Source: Anaerobutyricum hallii (lineage in GTDB: Bacteria > Bacillota > Clostridia > Lachnospirales > Lachnospiraceae). From it: 64,000 nt of DNA. Where the stretch lies: assembly GCF_900209925.1 (NCBI RefSeq), contig NZ_LT907978.1, positions 1,955,001 to 2,019,000 on the forward strand. The letters are read 5' to 3'. This document shows, piece by piece, positions 3,687 through 63,500 of the stretch. The number at the start of each line of letters is the position of its first letter. Positions within the stretch are counted from its first letter, which is position 1. Below the pieces are notes generated by a model. The model saw nothing but the letters and a program-made list of their open reading frames with translations. It made no database searches and was not told where the DNA came from. A program made the translations under genes and the position numbers.

Positions 3687-4270
3687 CTATTTAATTCATT
3701 TAGAAGAAAACAGACGAAAATAAAAAGAATAGACCATAACAAATGTAAAGATATCACTGCGTAGAAAATGCCTGTTCGGCATTTTTACTTGCTCTCACAT
3801 TACATTTATTATGGTCTATTCTTTTTATTTTCTGTGTTTTGGCTCTACGTGAATGAATTCAATAGTCTTTGGGAAGATAAAGGGGAGAGATCAGAAGTCT
3901 ACTACTTGTTCGGAAGATATCTCGCCAGAAGAGAAAAATGATATATTGCGACAATATAATAATAAAATTATTATGTAAAGTAATAGCTTGCGGTATCATC
4001 TTATCATCAGTGAAACTTGAAAAAGGTTCAGCAAAGTGAAAATGACATCAGAATAAGCCACAACCTTCTGTCCCCTTCTCTCCTCAAAAACTATTGCATT
4101 CATTCCTTCTGGAGCCAAAACACAGAAAAAAGAAATAATACCATATCCCAGATGCGGCTTCGGAGCGTGTTTAAGATGCGGACAAGCATCTTAAATACAG
4201 CGACTACAGAGCAGATGGGATATGGTATTATTTCTTTTTTCGTCTGTTTTCCTCTAATGAATCAAATAGT
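3687..4270. repeat. Two-hairpin composite element, copy 1 (HP1 3718-3831, HP2 4126-4240)
   Basis: Outer inverted repeats (3687-3717 and 4241-4270) read roughly ACTATTTRATTCATT then GARGAAAACAGACG. The first hairpin (3718-3831) starts right after CAGACG and ends right before CTGTGTTTTGGCTC. The second (4126-4240), on the opposite strand, has the same two boundaries. The hairpins differ. HP1 has apex AATGCCTG-TTCGGCATT and HP2 has the TTTAAGATGC/GCATCTTAAA apex. The 3832-4125 spacer is itself an inverted repeat (GTGTTTTGGCTC, GAATGAAT, CAATAGT inverted on the right). The right end abuts the nagA stop codon. I found no coding potential. Confidence 0.8.
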
Positions 4271-5508
4271 TATCTTCCACTTTTTATTACTTTTTTTAAT
4301 GTGAGGTTCTGATCAAGGAGAAGGATATCTGCTTTTTTCCCAATGCTGATTGAGCCTCTTTCTTCGTAGATTCCAAGACTGATGGCAGGATTTTTTGTAG
4401 CACAGGCTACGGCTGTTTCCAGCGGGATTCCCATCTGTGTAACTGCTGTTCGCATGCAGTCTGCAAGATTTGTTACAGAACCTGCTAATGCCCCATCGGA
4501 AACGAGAGTTGCTCTGTTCCCTGTTACTTTTACATCTAGTCCTCCTAATGTATACTGTCCATCTGGCATTCCCGTTGCTCTCATACTATCACTGATAAAT
4601 ATCATACGTTCCGCACCCATCATTTTAAATGCTGCTCTTATCATAGATGGATGAATATGCACTCCGTCGCAAATAATTTCGGACATGGCATGTTCATTGT
4701 CAGATGCTGCACCGACAACTCCTGGTTCTCTGTGTGTAAAACCAGTCATTGCATTAAATAAATGTACTACATGATTTGCTCCCGCTTCCAACGCTTCCTT
4801 TGCTATTTCATAAGATGCATTGGTATGTGCTAATGAAATATTTACTTTGTCTTTCATGTTCTTGATAAAAGAAACTGCGTTTGCACTTTCTTCTGGTGCA
4901 ATCCCCAGAAATTTAACGAGATAATCTGATGCATCCAAAAATCGCTGAGCGATTTCTTCATTACATGGGATAATATTCCGTTCATCCTGTGCACCTTTTT
5001 TAATCGGACTGATAAATGGTCCTTCCATATTAATACCAACAAAGTCTGCTCTCTTTTTATCGTTCTTTGTTTCTATCTGATCGATATCTTCACATTCTTT
5101 TTTATAGTCTGCCGCTGTTTTTAAAATGCTCTCCAGTTCTTCTACCGGAAGAGTCATTGTAGCCGGGGCAATTGCAGTAACACCAACGCTTGCTTCGTAC
5201 TCTGCAATGCGGCGAATCGCTTCTTTGTCTCCATCACAAAAGTCATCCCCCATACATCCATGGAAATGCAGATCGATTAATCCCGGAATGGCATAAGTTC
5301 CCTTTCCGTCTATTACATACTCTGTTATTACATTCTCTGTCAGTTTTTCTTTCTGTGCGGAGGAATCTGCTGTCATATTCATTTTTTTAAATGTGATTTC
5401 TTTTTCCTTTTCGGTATACACAGCTGTAATGGTATCTCCTTGTGTGATAATACCACCTAAAACGAATTTCCCGGATTCTGTATATACTTTTACATTATCA
5501 ATTATCAT
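4270..5508 (-). CDS. nagA: N-acetylglucosamine-6-phosphate deacetylase
   Basis: Hydrolyses GlcNAc-6-P to glucosamine-6-P and acetate, feeding NagB. An amidohydrolase-superfamily beta-barrel is followed by a TIM barrel. Metal and active-site motifs are PGLIDLHFHGCMGDDF, the GPF segment in NMEGPFISPIKKGAQ, SLAHTNASYE, HLFNAMTGFTHREPG and FISDSMRATGMPDG. I start at the ATG at 5508 (MIIDNVKVYTESGKF, 412 residues), 13 bp after the rpiR stop. A longer reading overlaps rpiR and adds non-homologous residues. It is slightly long for the family owing to a charged insert around residues 35-60. Third gene of nanE-rpiR-nagA. Confidence 0.95.
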   Translation of the reverse strand: MIIDNVKVYTESGKFVLGGIITQGDTITAVYTEKEKEITFKKMNMTADSSAQKEKLTENVITEYVIDGKGTYAIPGLIDLHFHGCMGDDFCDGDKEAIRRIAEYEASVGVTAIAPATMTLPVEELESILKTAADYKKECEDIDQIETKNDKKRADFVGINMEGPFISPIKKGAQDERNIIPCNEEIAQRFLDASDYLVKFLGIAPEESANAVSFIKNMKDKVNISLAHTNASYEIAKEALEAGANHVVHLFNAMTGFTHREPGVVGAASDNEHAMSEIICDGVHIHPSMIRAAFKMMGAERMIFISDSMRATGMPDGQYTLGGLDVKVTGNRATLVSDGALAGSVTNLADCMRTAVTQMGIPLETAVACATKNPAISLGIYEERGSISIGKKADILLLDQNLTLKKVIKSGR

Positions 5509-5521
5509 AGTTATAATCTTC

Positions 5522-6361
5522 TCACTTTCTTTCGATTTTTTCTGTATAAGATTTTTCCAAAGCCTGCAATGTCCGTTCATGCAATATTTTTTTCTTTGTT
5601 TCATCTCGTTCTACATAATAAGAATAAATAATATCTGTCATGATCAGAATCGGAAATTGTGGCGAAATTACATTTCCATGATTTAAATGAAGTAAAGACG
5701 GAACTAATACAACTTCTGTACAAAACTCTTTATAATCATCTCTGTTGTTCGCAGTAAATAAGATTGTTTTAGCTCCTCGCTTTTCCGCTTCTTTTAAAAG
5801 AAAAATAATTTCTTCTTTTTGCCCACCGATACTAAATCCAAAAACAAGGCTATCTTCATCCTGAAACACAGCCCGCATACGCATCAAATCAGTATCTGTA
5901 ATCGAGTCCACATCTACACCAATACGCATAAAACGAATTTCCATTTCTTTTGCAGCAAGACCTGAACTTCCTTTCCCACATACCAGAACTTTCTTTGCCT
6001 TATTCAGATAATTTCCAATTCTTTCAATCTGTTTTTCATCCACGAGGCTATATGAAGAATTTAAAAGTTCCTGATATGCATTCAATATCATCAATGTATT
6101 GCCTGCCATCGTTTCCTTTTTCTCTACAAAATTCTCCTCATACTGATAAATAAATTCCCGATATCCACGATATCCACATTTCTGTGCAAATCGGGAAAGA
6201 GAGGCTTCTGAAACAAAAAGTTTCGATGCTACTGTCTTTGCTGAAAAATCTGCCTTTTTCTGATTATTTATAAAGAAATCAGCAATCGATTTCTCAACTG
6301 TTGTAAACTTATTATAATTAGACTCTATAACCGGAATAACTGATTTAAAATAATGATTCAT
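5522..6361 (-). CDS. MurR/RpiR-family transcriptional regulator
   Basis: 279 residues. An N-terminal RpiR helix-turn-helix (about 1-80, with VASKLFVSEASLSRFAQKCGYRGYREF) is followed by a C-terminal SIS domain (about 115-260, with KVLVCGKGSSGLAAKEMEIRF) that in this family senses phosphosugars. It starts 3 bp after nanE and ends 13 bp before nagA, so all three are probably co-transcribed. The family commonly controls sialic-acid, GlcNAc and MurNAc catabolism. Two TGAAAGT..CTTNC palindromes at 7456 and 7507, ahead of divergent nagB, are plausible operators. Confidence 0.93.
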   Translation of the reverse strand: MNHYFKSVIPVIESNYNKFTTVEKSIADFFINNQKKADFSAKTVASKLFVSEASLSRFAQKCGYRGYREFIYQYEENFVEKKETMAGNTLMILNAYQELLNSSYSLVDEKQIERIGNYLNKAKKVLVCGKGSSGLAAKEMEIRFMRIGVDVDSITDTDLMRMRAVFQDEDSLVFGFSIGGQKEEIIFLLKEAEKRGAKTILFTANNRDDYKEFCTEVVLVPSLLHLNHGNVISPQFPILIMTDIIYSYYVERDETKKKILHERTLQALEKSYTEKIERK

Positions 6362-27095: not shown

Positions 27096-28097
27096 TTATT
27101 TACATAAAGAAAAATTACTTGTCAGAAACGTATCGAACTTTTCAAATTCATTTAACTTACTGACTCTTTTCCCATCAATCGTAAACTGAACCTGATAAGC
27201 AGTATCTAGATCAGTAAGAGTATTCACCATCGCATACACCGTAATCTTTTCCTTTACATCTGCTACAGCATTCTCTATATCACTGCTCAAATCCACATAA
27301 CAGGTATTATTCATAATCTGCGTCTGATTCACATGAAAATCCTGTGAGAGTGGACTCTTCAAATTCTTCTTTGAAGCCGGAGGATTCTTCAGCATAAGAA
27401 GAACCTGCGTTTCAAGTGGAACATTATTCTTTACTTCCACTTCTCTAAAACAGGAAATAAGCTTATCTCCTGTCTTATTCGTATAATATAGTTTTACTTT
27501 TTTCTTTTCTGAATAAATACTCTTCTCTCCATCATCTGTCAAAAGAGTATCTTCATTCATCAGCCCTACCGGAACTTTGTCTGTATCTAATAAACTAGAA
27601 CCATTGACAGAAAAAGTAATCCCTTCAACTCCTTTAATCTGAAGCAGCGACTTCACAACAGATGTACGAAGTAATACTTCCTTTACATGACTAAGCTGAC
27701 CATAGGCTGCACCAAAGTCTATATTCTCCTTTCCGTTTTCCAAAGGCGAAACATCATTTACTGCAATCCCATCAAAAATGGATGCCTTATACTCACTTGT
27801 ATTATTCCCCTCTGTATCGGAAAGTTTATAAAGCACTTCATAAGATGCCTTTACCGAATCATTCGGATTCTGTAAAGTATACGGAACCTTTTTAAATCCA
27901 TCTTCTTCTGCATTCAGATAATATAAGTTAATTGTATTCTTATCTTCTGCCGCTTCTGTTGTTATCCCTTCCCCGCTGTCCGTCTTTTCCTTTGATGCTG
28001 CGGAAGATGCCGTATTGCCACCGTATCCACACAAAGTACTTAATAAAAGCAGACTCAGGAAAAATAACAGATATCCTTTTCTCTTTAATCTTCTCAT
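27096..28097 (-). CDS. GerMN-domain lipoprotein
   Basis: 333 residues. A signal-like N-terminus ends in LSTLCGYGG, a loose lipobox (the residue before Cys is Leu rather than Gly or Ala). A Ser/Glu-rich linker is followed by two GerMN-like domains, the second with TQVLLMLKNPP and YVDLSSDIENA. GerMN domains occur in GerM (sporulation/germination) and LpqB-type envelope proteins. It starts 11 bp after the sensor kinase and is probably its co-transcribed envelope partner. Confidence 0.85.
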   Translation of the reverse strand: MRRLKRKGYLLFFLSLLLLSTLCGYGGNTASSAASKEKTDSGEGITTEAAEDKNTINLYYLNAEEDGFKKVPYTLQNPNDSVKASYEVLYKLSDTEGNNTSEYKASIFDGIAVNDVSPLENGKENIDFGAAYGQLSHVKEVLLRTSVVKSLLQIKGVEGITFSVNGSSLLDTDKVPVGLMNEDTLLTDDGEKSIYSEKKKVKLYYTNKTGDKLISCFREVEVKNNVPLETQVLLMLKNPPASKKNLKSPLSQDFHVNQTQIMNNTCYVDLSSDIENAVADVKEKITVYAMVNTLTDLDTAYQVQFTIDGKRVSKLNEFEKFDTFLTSNFSLCK

Positions 28098-42530: not shown

Positions 42531-42750
42531 AATCCTGACCTGTAGATTTGGTGTAGACGAAAAAAGAAAAAATACCATATCCCATCTGCTCTGTAGTCGC
42601 TGTGTTTAAGATACTTGCTCGCATCTTAAACATGCTCCGAAGCCACATCTGGGATATGGTATTTTTTCTTTTTTCTGACTATGCTAAATCCACAGTTGGA
42701 CAACGTGGAATGTACCAGAAGGATATGACTTTCCGGGAAATTAAAGTCTA
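42531..42750 (+). repeat. Single-hairpin element, copy 3 (HP 42560-42674)
   Basis: The left terminal repeat AATCCTGACCTGTAG...GTAGACG (42531-42559) is followed by a hairpin with outer stem AAAAAAGAAAAAATACCAT and an inner stem around TTTAAGAT/ATCTTAAA. It ends before CTGACTATGCTAAATCC. The right flank to about 42750 matches the spacer sequence of copies 4 and 6 (TTTCCGGGAAATTAAAGTCTAA) and includes the last codon and stop of the flavoprotein gene. No inverted partner follows, so this is a solo half-element. Confidence 0.75.
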
Positions 42751-43280
42751 ATAGAATATCCCATATCATAGGCTTTTTTAAAAACACTTTGATTCTCGAC
42801 CAATCCAGCATCCATCACGTTTGCTGCATATATCTTTCCTGCAATCTTATATTCTTCCAGATGCTCTACAAAACCATTCAGATCACCAAGCGATCTTTCA
42901 ATAATGTCCTCACCCAAACCAGCCGATATAATGTAGTAAATCTCTTTTTTACCAAGATGCTGCCAGATAGGATAAGTACGGTCAATAAAGGTCTTCATCT
43001 GGGCACTGATTCCATAAAAATAAACCGGTGTAGCCAGTACAAGTACATCTGCTTTCTGAAACATTTTTAGTATCTCAGCCATATCATCTTTTAATACACA
43101 GGTGCCACCATTTCTCATACAGCCGTCACAGGCTCTGCAAAAACCTATATTCTGCTCCATGATGCGTACGAGTTCCACCTGATGTCCTTTTGCTTCTGCA
43201 CCTTTTTTAAACTGCTCACACAAGATTTGTGAATTTCCTTTTTTTCTTGGCGAACTTGAAATAATCAATACATTTTTCAT
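42741..43280 (-). CDS. Flavodoxin-fold iron-sulfur flavoprotein / NADPH-FMN reductase family
   Basis: 179 residues. FMN-phosphate loop SSSPRKKGNSQILCEQF at the N-terminus, Cys-rich insert GFCRACDGCMRNGGTCVLKDDM (about 48-69) typical of archaeal/clostridial Fe-S flavoproteins, and the ATPVYFYGISAQMKTFIDRTY FMN-binding motif. Probably an electron carrier or reductase. The last residue and TAA stop lie in the flank of the hairpin element, so the C-terminus may have been re-made by its insertion. The 43281-43519 region upstream shows no clear feature. Confidence 0.85.
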   Translation of the reverse strand: MKNVLIISSSPRKKGNSQILCEQFKKGAEAKGHQVELVRIMEQNIGFCRACDGCMRNGGTCVLKDDMAEILKMFQKADVLVLATPVYFYGISAQMKTFIDRTYPIWQHLGKKEIYYIISAGLGEDIIERSLGDLNGFVEHLEEYKIAGKIYAANVMDAGLVENQSVFKKAYDMGYSIRL

Positions 43281-43519
43281 TCGTTTTCCTTTCCTACATA
43301 CTGATTTACAAACTTTTTATAACTTATCTTTCCAGATACTATAGATTTGATACTACATTGATTGGATTCCCTCAATATAACTTACACCCATAAACCCACC
43401 TCTATATTTTCCATTCAAATATATTTTGATTATATCACGATTCCCTTAGATTGAATATCTATAATTTTTAATACTTTCCATAAAATAGAAAAGAAAACAT
43501 TCTACCTCTCTCAACCTAA

Positions 43520-44155
43520 AATCCTGATTTGTAGACTTAATGTAGACGAAAAAAGAAATAATACCATATCCCATCTGCTCTGTAGTCGCTGTGTTTAAAA
43601 TGCTCATCCGCATCTTAAACACGCTCCCAAGCCGCATCTGGGATATGGTATTATTTCTTTTTTCTGACTACTTTAAATCCACAGTTGATGAAAATGGGGA
43701 TTCTCCAAAAGATTATGAATTCTCGGGAAATTAAAGTCTAAAAGATTGACACATTTCTTCTGAAAGTTTCCATCTGAATAGAAATCGTAGACTTTTGGAG
43801 AATCTCCTCGTTTTTTAAGGAAAAAATGGAGCGTTTGGCGCAACGGAACAAAATCAAACTTATAAAAATTTTCTTTTCTTTAGATACCTTAATGCAATTC
43901 AGCAACATAGAACAATTTAAATGTCAGTCCTTTAGAAATTAATTTCCCGGAATGTCATAAGCTTCTGGTGTAGTCCATGTTATTAAACTGTAGATTTAGA
44001 ATAGTCAGAAAAAAGAAACAAATAATACATCCCAGATGCGGCTTGGGAGCGTATTTAAGATGCAGGTGAGCATCTTAAATACAGCGACTACAGAGCAGAT
44101 GGGATGTATTATTTGTTTCTTTTTTCGTCTATTACCAAATCTACAAATCAGGATT
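43520..44155. repeat. Two-hairpin composite element, copy 4 (HP1 43549-43663, HP2 44009-44125)
   Basis: Outer inverted repeats AATCCTGATTTGTAGA...TAGACG at 43520-43548 and 44126-44155. Both hairpins share the CATCTGCTCTGTAGTCGCTG...GCTCCCAAGCCGCATCTGGG core. The outer stems differ (GAAATAATACCATATCCC against GAAACAAATAATACATCCC), yet each pairs perfectly with its own partner arm. The inner stem of HP2 is GTATTTAAG/CTTAAATAC where HP1 has GTGTTTAAA-type pairing. The spacer ends form a roughly 95-bp inverted repeat (CTGACTA..TAAATC..ACAGTT, GGGAAATTAA). It also contains a truncated arm of the large hairpin of copy 5 (43815-43905). Confidence 0.82.
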
Positions 44156-44555
44156 TAAAAACTACCTCTCTTATAACATCATCCATCCAAATACATAACG
44201 GAGTGACAAAAAACCATATAATAAGAAATGGAATACAAATCTGCCCCCGGTAATTAAAAGGCACTTTTGAGTAATCCCATACATGAAGCTTCAAATAAAT
44301 ATTCACAATGACACCCGTTAAATATTCATAAGAAATAATAATAAGACTCCCCAGTATCATTTGCAAAAGAAAAGAGGGATGCCATTTTTTACCTTCATTT
44401 AATAATCCAATCGTATAAAAAGATAATCCCCCACAAATAATCATAGATATATGAGAATAACCCCGATATAGAATCTCAAAATTAAAATATACCATTCCTC
44501 CAAAACTAATAAGAAATAATGGCTGCACTATTTTTGTTATCACAAAATGTCTCAT
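44148..44555 (-). CDS. CmpB-type putative ABC-transporter permease-like membrane protein
   Basis: 135 residues with four hydrophobic segments and the family pattern YEYLTGVIVNIYLKLHVWDY followed by VPFNYRGQICIPFLIIWF. The function is unknown despite the Pfam-style name. The stop codon TGA comes from the terminal repeat of the adjoining hairpin element (AAATCCTGATT), so the native 3' end may have been replaced. Confidence 0.8.
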   Translation of the reverse strand: MRHFVITKIVQPLFLISFGGMVYFNFEILYRGYSHISMIICGGLSFYTIGLLNEGKKWHPSFLLQMILGSLIIISYEYLTGVIVNIYLKLHVWDYSKVPFNYRGQICIPFLIIWFFVTPLCIWMDDVIREVVFKS

Positions 44556-44556
44556 T

Positions 44557-44605
44557 CTCTGCCGCTCCTAAAACACAATTTTTATTGTGAATAGTATTGG
44601 CAGAG
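44557..44605 (-). promoter_or_regulatory. 5'-UTR hairpin of the CmpB-like gene
   Basis: CTCTGCC/GGCAGAG with inner CACAAT/ATTGTG. The 3' arm lies next to the start codon and the AGGAG sequence is inside the loop side, so folding could limit initiation. Confidence 0.4.
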
Positions 44606-45098
44606 TGGAATTTTCTATACGAAAAAAGAACAAATACTATATCCCATCTGCTCTGTAGTCGCTGTATTTAAGATGCTCATCCGCATCTTAAACACGCTCC
44701 CAAGCCGCATCTGGGATATAGTATTTGTTCTTTTTTCTGTCTAATTTAAATCCACAGTTAGCAACATGGACTGTGCTCCTTATTTTTTAATTCATTTGTA
44801 GAATTGATTAGACAGCCGCTGTAATAGAACTTTCTACTGAATTGTAAGGAAATTATGGTAAAGAAAAGAGAATTTTTATAAGTATTGCATTTTGTGACTT
44901 TGCGCTGTGGAATTTTGACTCTGAAAACTTCGGACTTGTTTTTCCGAAGTTTTCGTTTTTCGAGGCAAAATGAAACGTTTAGCGCAACGGAACAAAATCA
45001 AACTTATAAAAATTCTCTTTTCTTTAGAAACCTCAATCCAATTCAGTTAAGTAATCTCCCTTCAGCGGCGTCTGTTTCAACCCCTACAAATCAGGATT
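44606..45098. repeat. Two-hairpin composite element, copy 5 (HP1 44622-44736, HP2 44816-45068)
   Basis: HP1 is of the copy-4 type with outer stem GAACAAATACTATATCCC. HP2 is a large 253-nt hairpin with the same boundaries (CAGACG before, CTG after on its own strand). Its feet are CCGCTG/CAGCGG, a long arm AAAGAAAAGAGAATTTTTAT pairs across, and the apex is AAAACTTCGGA/TCCGAAGTTTT. The short spacer pairs as CTGTCTAAT/ATTAGACAG. The right outer repeat (45069-45097, CGTCTG...CTACAAATCAGGATT) ends exactly at the stop codon of the ABC ATPase gene. The left outer repeat is decayed. Confidence 0.78.
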
Positions 45099-62085: not shown

Positions 62086-62485
62086 TCTTGATTTGTAGAT
62101 TTAAGGTAGACGAAAAAAGAAAAACTATCCTATCCCATCTGCTCTGTAGTCGCTGTGATTAAGATGCTCATCCGCATCTTAATCACGCTCCCAAGCCGCA
62201 TCTGGGATAGGATAGTTTTTCTTTTTTCTGACTAATCTAAATCCACAGTTTGGCAACACGGGAATTCTCCAGAATGTTATGGCTTTCCGGGAAATTAAAT
62301 TCTAAAGGATTGACATTTCATATGGAGCCAACAAACAGAAAAGCGGAAATTTTATATAGAATAGAATATGATGTCGGAGCAAATAAAAATGCCGGTCAGG
62401 CATTTTCTATGCCGCGACTATCTTCATATTCTATTCTATATAAATTTCTGCTTTTCGTCTGTCTCTCTTTACAGATCAGGATTCT
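62086..62485. repeat. Two-hairpin composite element, copy 6 (HP1 62113-62227, HP2 62339-62455)
   Basis: Outer repeats CTTGATTTGTAGATTTAAGGTAGACG (left, first half) and CGTCTGTCTCTCTTTACAGATCAGGATT (right). HP1 has the copy-4 core with a new outer stem (AAAAACTATCCTATCCC) and inner stem GTGATTAAG/CTTAATCAC. HP2 is of the copy-1 type (AATGCCTGACCGGCATT apex) with its own outer stem (AAATTTATATAGAATAGAATA). The right outer repeat contains the last codons of etfA: AAT CCT GAT CTG TAA. Confidence 0.82.
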
Positions 62486-63500
62486 CTTTAATCTGCTCTA
62501 TCATTGCCGGAATAACCTTATGAAGATCACCTACAATACCATAATCGCAAACTTCAAAAATAGGTGCTTTTGGATCTTTATTAATAGCTACAATATATTT
62601 CGATTCGCTCATACCTGCCAAATGCTGGATTGCTCCAGAAATACCACAGGCAATATAAAGATCCGGTCTTACTGTAGTTCCTGTTTGTCCCACCTGATGG
62701 CTGGCATCAATCCATCCTGCTTCTACACAGGCACGAGAAGAACCAACAACGCCACCTATCGTATCTGCCAGTTCCTGGACTAAAGCAAAGCCTTCTGCCG
62801 TCTTTAATCCACGACCGCCGGAAACCACAATCTTTGCATCTACCAGATTCACCTTCTTCTGATCAGCTACGATTACCTGTTCCAGATTAGTCCGGATATC
62901 TTCTTTCGTTAATGCCGGAACAATCACTTCTACCTCACCTGTTTTTTCTTCATGGAAATGTGCTTTCTCCATTACTCCAGGACGTACAGTAGACATCTGT
63001 GGACGGTTTTTCGGACAAACGATCGTTGCCATAAGATTACCGCCAAAAGCCGGTCTTGTCATCAATAATTTATTATCTGTCTCATCAATTTCCAATTTGG
63101 TACAATCCGCAGTCAAACCTGTTCCCAGTCTTGCGGCAAGGCGTGGTCCGATATCTCTCCCAAGAGAAGTTGCTCCTACAAGAACAATCTCTGGTTTTCT
63201 TTCATTAATTAAATCTGCAAATGCCTTCACATAACCATCTGTGGAAAAATCTTTTAACAATGGACTTTCTACATAACAAACTTTGTCTACGCCATAATGA
63301 AGAAGTTTTTCTGTTTCTTCTTTCATTTCATAACCACATACAGCTACTATAAGTTCTCTACTTAAAATATCAGCCAGCTTTCTTCCTTCACCGATTAATT
63401 CGATAGTTACTGGTTCGATTTTCCCATTTCTTTGCTCTGCAATGATCCAGACATTTTTATAATCATTCAGACAAATATTCTGATTTACTTTTGCTCTCAT
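62469..63500 (-). CDS. etfA: Electron transfer flavoprotein, alpha subunit
   Basis: 343 residues. An N-terminal domain is followed by the FAD-binding C-terminal domain with VVSGGRGLKTAEGF, GSSRACVEAGWIDASHQVGQTG and ACGISGAIQHLAGM. Works with EtfB to pass electrons, typically to or from acyl-CoA dehydrogenases. Whether it bifurcates cannot be told here. The C-terminal NPDL and stop codon coincide with the terminal repeat of the adjoining hairpin element. Confidence 0.95.
   Translation of the reverse strand: MRAKVNQNICLNDYKNVWIIAEQRNGKIEPVTIELIGEGRKLADILSRELIVAVCGYEMKEETEKLLHYGVDKVCYVESPLLKDFSTDGYVKAFADLINERKPEIVLVGATSLGRDIGPRLAARLGTGLTADCTKLEIDETDNKLLMTRPAFGGNLMATIVCPKNRPQMSTVRPGVMEKAHFHEEKTGEVEVIVPALTKEDIRTNLEQVIVADQKKVNLVDAKIVVSGGRGLKTAEGFALVQELADTIGGVVGSSRACVEAGWIDASHQVGQTGTTVRPDLYIACGISGAIQHLAGMSESKYIVAINKDPKAPIFEVCDYGIVGDLHKVIPAMIEQIKENPDL

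Follow-up and report, generated by a model that had tools for sequence, protein, structure and literature searches.

The 64,000-nt stretch of DNA analysed in this study (hereafter the window; bases 1955001-2019000 of a genome that forms one contig of 3,515,670 bp) carries six copies of a hairpin with a common core, members of a high-copy superfamily whose long outer stems vary in sequence from copy to copy while the opposite arms change in a compensatory manner. On balance, we incline to the view that these hairpins form non-autonomous, REPIN-like mobile doublets, under selection for the folded - strand, which would have spread separately in two sister species.

The core CATCTGCTCTGTAGTCGCTG of the hairpin family F1 occurs exactly six times in the window (mean of 0.01 in shuffled sequences), which bears out the original prediction of six hairpins with a common core. 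A seventh match, at 27645, has three mismatches and surrounding sequence without the arms, and was rejected. The outer arms of the six copies are 26-27 bp long, perfectly paired and different in sequence from copy to copy. The inner stems had also been predicted to change in step, but this holds only for the copies at 44008 and 62112, which are fully paired. Those at 4125 and 44621 read GTATTT/AAACAC, a half-changed state found at that inner-stem pair in 27 of 155 copies genome-wide, and when the whole 12-bp stem is considered, one A.C is present in each of the copies at 42559 and 43548 as well (i.e. four of the six window copies carry one A.C).

As shown in Table 1, the hairpin is built, from the outside to the inside, of an outer stem (stem II), an asymmetric internal loop, an inner stem (stem I) and a terminal loop of six. 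GACG precedes stem II and CTG follows it, and the F1 arms terminate in A and T runs. The internal loop contains TAGTCGC on the left and, in most forms, GCTCCGA on the right; it is near-invariant across the 155 parsed F1 copies, although this invariance is somewhat overstated, since the copies were gathered through near-matches to the loop itself. A similar loop motif, combined with unrelated stems, is present in the families F2, F3 and F4 of the same genome, and a cross-family alignment does not bring the F1 and F2 inner stems into register. In copies from Anaerobutyricum hallii, a further flanking stem (III) was recognized by eye, e.g. around GATTTG/CAAATC. Comparison of the window with Rfam gave 0 matches at the gathering score; with E values of up to 5 allowed, one locus gave eight weak matches (E 0.045 to 5), all far below the gathering score.

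Table 1. Hairpins of the window, the parts of one F1 copy and the ends of one doublet (positions are those of the window)
Feature	Position	Strand	Remarks
F3-type hairpin, same superfamily as F1	3716-3832	+	
F1 hairpin	4125-4241	-	~28 nt past stop of ORF 4270-5604(-); convergent with 3716-3832
F1 hairpin	42559-42675	+	
Left end of inverted doublet	43520-43535	+	forms a perfect 16-bp terminal inverted repeat with 44140-44155
F1 hairpin, left member of doublet	43548-43664	+	
Stem II (outer stem), left arm in the copy taken as an example	43548-43573	+	base-by-base pairing with 43639-43664
Left side of conserved internal loop, TCTGTAGTCGCTG	43579-43591	+	columns near-invariant in 155 parsed copies; similar motif in other families
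Inner stem and terminal loop (stem I)	43592-43621	+	covaries, many A.C cells; example copy with one A.C
Conserved internal loop, right side: CGCTCCCAAGCC (other copies: CGCTCCGAAGCC)	43622-43633	+	
Right arm of outer stem (stem II)	43639-43664	+	pairs with left arm
F1 hairpin, right member of doublet	44008-44126	-	~20 nt past stop codon of ORF 44148-44555(-)
Right end of inverted doublet 43520-44155	44140-44155	-	
F1 hairpin	44621-44737	+	absent from matching A. hallii contig
F1 hairpin	62112-62228	+	convergent with 62351-62444
F2-type hairpin, same superfamily as F1	62351-62444	-	~25 nt past stop of ORF 62469-63500(-)

A search of the whole genome for the core, with up to three mismatches, yielded 187 matches (107 + 80), compared with 0 for a reversed-pattern control. 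Twelve of 170 raw contexts were unparsable; they included chance core matches, truncated copies and, twice, one locus (L127). Parsing gave 155 copies, of which 150 had both outer arms alignable (the other 5 were left out of the arm count). The 150 copies display 74 distinct left arms, and 58 of their 3910 outer-arm pairs (1.5%) are non-Watson-Crick, in an untrimmed count in which all copies look imperfect owing to the last column, and a few of the mismatches at the ends are artefacts. Unpaired changes as frequent as paired ones, named in the original prediction as the contrary outcome, were thus not observed. When the last two columns were trimmed, 109 of the 150 copies were perfect (58 haplotypes) and 41 were imperfect, and therefore the exact inversion of the arms, true of all six window copies, does not extend to the genome as a whole. 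In 10 of the 41 imperfect copies each arm was found elsewhere as a perfect arm, which makes these copies look like recombinants.

Covariation was analyzed in an alignment of 97 genomic copies (92 distinct; length 122), obtained from 100 of 102 matches to a regular expression in which the core was fixed, as were the runs of A and T, and complementarity was left free. Changes on both sides were detected in 18 of 41 pairs (shuffle mean 8.8, with 0 of 500 shuffles as high), the number of cells with double changes was 199 (48.3 in shuffles) and the covariation score reached 0.161 (0.050 in shuffles). Since the covariation exceeded every shuffle and every slid register, the compensatory change is real; as to the two mechanisms that had been put forward for it, selection on the fold is favoured, and block replacement is not favoured as the main route.

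This selection looks strand-specific. The mismatches of the outer stems, read on the + strand, comprised (i) 30 A.C, 13 G.T and 15 others in F1, and (ii) 34 A.C, 17 G.T and 27 others in F5, the family described below. Pooled, A.C accounts for 64 of 94 and G.T for 30 (binomial p 0.0006, for copies that are not independent). An A.C on the + strand is a G.U on the - strand, and standard pairs make up 99.2% of the cells on the - strand vs 97.88% on the + strand. The F1 inner stems display a similar tendency (84 A.C, 15 G.T and 15 others); however, the A.C count comes mostly from two polymorphisms (pairs 20/47 and 26/41), and site by site the strand bias of the inner stem is less clear-cut. On inspection by eye, A.C also occupies the corresponding place in most of the listed F5 cores. 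The predicted RNA fold was lower for the - strand in 91 of 92 F1 and 79 of 91 F5 copies, and with DNA parameters the - strand folded better in 92 of 92 F1 copies. Both the mismatch types and the folding energies indicate that the - strand, which is antisense to the abutting gene, is probably the folding strand, as RNA or as single-stranded DNA. Against this stands the non-independence of the copies, owing to which the bias could rest on a few ancestral changes.

The F1 pattern is replicated in A. hallii by the family F5, with different sequences. F5 was the dominant family among the A. hallii sites listed (~95 of 100 listed sites, by eye), as F1 was the commonest form, by eye, among the sites listed from the genome of the window. 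Among 91 F5 copies fetched, 86 had a measurable stem; in these, 78 of 2727 outer-stem pairs (2.9%) were non-Watson-Crick, with a further 23 gap columns, and there were 44 perfect copies and 76 distinct left arms. Perfect F5 arms of equal length differ on average by 7.8 to 12.3 of 30-33 pairs. Paired with the right arm of another copy, an F5 left arm showed 46% mismatch, vs 6% with its own right arm, in a count extended beyond the stem ends. The five F5 copies with stems shorter than 24 columns count against perfect pairing; they include at least one apparent chimera of two arm types (L366).

The distribution of the superfamily was analyzed with the loop motif TAGTCGC-N25-48-GCTCCGA, a search that misses forms with another right side, e.g. 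GCTCCCA. It gave 183 matches in A. hallii and 167 in the genome of the window, as against a maximum of 2 (up to 4 for the reversed control) in 294 other genomes of the bacterial family. Of 24 genomes from the genus, many being incomplete, one further genome had 1 match and 21 had none. The 22 other genomes with 1-2 loop-motif matches were taken as chance, because the reversed control reaches 4; single cores with two mismatches in eight other family genomes were likewise taken as chance. Thus, within the genomes searched, the hairpin superfamily is restricted to two species. The exact core 20-mer is present in three contigs of Anaerobutyricum hallii DSM 3353, and matching flanks are ~85-97% identical; the genome of the window is therefore that of a close sister of A. 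hallii, for which A. soehngenii would be a candidate. It is worth mentioning that 12 of 100 listed A. hallii motif sites begin no more than 600 bases from the start of their contig, and draft assemblies may therefore break at these hairpins and undercount them. None of the viral contigs contained the F1 core; one contained an F5 core, inside a 622-aa ORF and with no superfamily hairpin, and was rejected. No match was obtained in plasmid and phage collections or by distant blastn with the doublet.

Individual places were compared between the two species. At 2198.1 kb (L029; A. hallii C62) the insertion is common to both, its two flanks being 94% and 85% identical, and two stem base pairs have been changed on both arms between the species; one mismatch is left in the A. 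hallii copy and two in the other. An F1-like copy is also common at 2029.7 kb (L273; A. hallii C28), where the internal and terminal loops differ between the species and the inner 16-bp arms are the same but for one change, unpaired, in the innermost pair in the genome of the window; there is no paired change. With one copy showing paired changes and one an unpaired change, the two common copies are too few to decide. The left arm of L273 is interrupted by ~60 bp that its A. hallii counterpart lacks, inside which lies a small hairpin, CCACCTGAAAGAGGTGGG, that we take to resemble an IS605-type end. The hairpin at 44621 in the window is absent from the matching A. hallii contig, but the places compared (44621 and 2029.7 kb) yielded neither a target-site duplication nor a clean empty site for an entire doublet.

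The F1 copies are usually found in inverted doublets. Of 74 copies with enough flank, 54 have a partner from the superfamily in convergent orientation at a distance of up to 900 bp (median 414 bp); the other arrangements comprise divergent partners (2), partners in the same orientation (6 downstream and 4 upstream) and no partner (16), and the partners may belong to another family. The doublet spacers hold further repeated stretches (window positions 43801-43850 and 44966-45000 both contain GCGCAACGGAACAAAATC in similar surroundings), and the intergenic regions thus look like mosaics of several repeat families. Promoters in the region 43500-44180 numbered 2, vs 2.2 expected.

The placement of the copies relative to genes raises the question of whether they are host 3' UTR or bidirectional terminator elements, kept for expression and homogenized by gene conversion, and not mobile. 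We regard this as somewhat unlikely, and a terminator role would in any case be compatible with mobility. In its favour is the position at gene ends: open frames of at least 120 codons, taken from stop to stop, end no more than 35 nt before GACG in 90 F1 and 18 F5 copies, and the stop codon is often the element's own. Between two ORF neighbours (n=125), 59 F1 copies lie in convergent, 38 + 24 in tandem and only 4 in divergent arrangement, with a + gene to the left of 97; 6 more copies were called inside small ORFs. A + gene to the left was also found for 15 of 18 F5 and 11 of 14 F2 copies, but for just 3 of 9 F3 copies, which break the stop-codon rule. Much of this orientation rule is, however, explained by the geometry of inverted doublets. 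The A and T runs that close the F1 arms are in its favour as well, but a T run directly following the stem, present in F1, is not constant in the printed F5 stems, and a terminator scan of 43500-44180, with a loop limit of 8 that excludes such hairpins, gave 0 sites. The antisense orientation of the better folding strand and the difference in copy families between two close species also argue against a terminator role as the whole explanation.

As regards the way in which the stems change, the original prediction had allowed for block replacement by template switching, which as the main route found no support. Of the 48 minimum-spanning steps that connect 49 perfect 25-bp arms, 41 were single base pairs. 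Across 101 perfect copies, mutual information was no more than 0.12 bit for 12 of 15 pairs of variable stem positions, and 12 of 15 showed all four main-allele combinations (two of them with one combination seen once); positions 9, 10 and 15 were linked. Such mostly single-pair steps at largely unlinked positions argue against the replacement of long blocks. The completed steps comprised 20 transitions and 21 transversions, as compared with 19:5 in single-mismatch copies (Fisher p 0.02), and with transversions as common as transitions, a purely wobble-mediated route fails to explain all of the steps.

Many of the steps thus did not pass through a wobble, which is in favour of arm-to-arm copying at the DNA level. 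In this process a new mutation would be carried from one arm into the other by a short template switch, or else through the mismatch repair of an extruded hairpin, and no product would be under selection. Arm-to-arm copying has reportedly been described in work on quasipalindromes also. As the sole explanation we consider it unlikely, but it may contribute alongside the mobility of the doublets. The mechanism itself has been published (PMC8794818), and a fast-changing block is consistent with it: in 15 copy pairs with a mean tail divergence of 2.6%, differences affect 10.7% of the base pairs in the variable block, compared with 2.3% in the internal loops. This discordance could reflect arm copying, fast compensation or the exchange of whole hairpins between copies. 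A mismatch bias tied to the element strand would not be expected from a symmetric DNA process. A block signature was also lacking, although isolated single-pair changes are termed uninformative on this mechanism in PMC8794818. The internal loops stay asymmetric in the parsed F1 copies, partly by construction, since these were parsed via near-matches to both loop sides. Symmetric loops were found at only one place among the 12 unparsed contexts (L127, at ~1176.8 kb, both strands), and its two arms differ, which speaks against copying. At L127, two F1 left halves that differ in their arms face each other; its interpretation as a template switch was rejected, and in comparison with A. hallii it is better read as a probable deletion between convergent hairpins at their inner stems.

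We return to the reading of the hairpins as REPIN-like mobile doublets. Mobility is suggested by (i) the different dominant families of the sister species, (ii) the unoccupied site and (iii) doublets with inverted ends, and the conserved loops, combined with stems that are free in sequence but pair, point to recognition of a folded strand. According to this model, inverted doublets of two hairpins, usually ~400 bp apart, would be dispersed as non-autonomous elements; the - strand would fold, as RNA or single-stranded DNA, and a protein or RNA partner would read the conserved internal loop, whereas the stems would mainly have to pair, their sequence thus drifting by single paired steps. The unpaired arm change of the 2029.7-kb copy and the equal numbers of transversion and transition steps count against it. 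As for a mobilizer, none was found: six of seven Y1 transposase matches had no superfamily hairpin in the ~1.5 kb of fetched flanks, and one had two such hairpins at 1 to 1.4 kb. This last match (L230, at ~794 kb) lies beside a 379-aa ORF that by eye resembles TnpB. A bolder proposal, which we put forward as doubtful, is that of a new class of Firmicutes mobile site: a gene-end inverted pair of long hairpins, one folded strand of which would be recognized by an enzyme through a conserved internal loop, the stems being only spacers that would drift by coupled steps faster than neighbouring unpaired DNA.

It is a standing question how long stems can change in sequence and yet stay perfectly paired (PMC8794818), and more than 100 parallel copies per genome in two sister gut bacteria provide a natural test set for it. 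With an independent family in the sister species, compensation, arm copying and recombination become separable by strain comparison. Should a protein read the internal loop, a gut bacterium would harbour a new structure-reading recombinase, or else an RNA partner. Among the titles of open-licence papers listed, none dealt with these repeats in Anaerobutyricum or Eubacterium hallii.

Several known systems resemble the hairpins in part. In integrons, the bottom strand of attC sites folds, the stem sequence is variable and the site lies beside a stop codon. A dispersed folded-strand recombination site working like attC would have these features in common with our hairpins (position beside a stop codon, folding of the - strand, free stem sequence and conserved unpaired features) but is very improbable, given that the R boxes (RYYYAAC left and GTTRRRY right) are both present in 1 of 155 copies, with 0.8 expected from shuffles, and that the copies are scattered doublets, not cassette arrays. 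In the template-switch model for the maintenance of RNA hairpins, paired changes are proposed to arise in one event and the informative cases are multi-base clusters (PMC8794818), unlike the mostly single-pair steps found here.

Bacterial MITEs (Correia/NEMIS, ERIC, RUP, YPAL) are 100-200 bp long and their transcripts form long hairpins (PMC2229807). Copy-specific paired stem changes are not described for them in the available text of that paper, where the word 'compensatory' occurs 0 times. As to terminal inverted repeats, a MITE feature, a perfect 16-bp repeat lies at the ends of the doublet 43520-44155, and one other doublet (L131) has similar ends. The CGTC-tagged palindromic repeats also have GACG/CGTC beside the stem at one end, and no dedicated transposase is known for them according to the available text of PMC3733652; however, their stems are of 8-9 bp, their loops of 4-5 bp, and they occur in five other phyla (PMC3733652). 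The four common bases may be a coincidence.

The closest likeness is to REP/REPIN elements, which are also high-copy extragenic hairpins, often in inverted doublets (as here in 54 of 74 F1 copies), with conserved stem irregularities. REPs are 20-40 bp long (PMC3733652), in contrast to ~120 bp for our hairpins, and their GTAG tag at the stem base is not constant here: the four bases ending at the A of ACG read TAGA in 99, CAGA in 38 and otherwise in 14 of 151 copies. A Y1 (RAYT) gene flanked by copies was likewise not found among the seven Y1 matches. In one group, TnpA_REP needs folded single-stranded DNA and a bulge or irregularity (PMC8266576). Although defining features of REP and of attC were looked for and not found in the hairpins, the recognition of REP by TnpA_REP may, by analogy, be regarded as the nearest working model for them.
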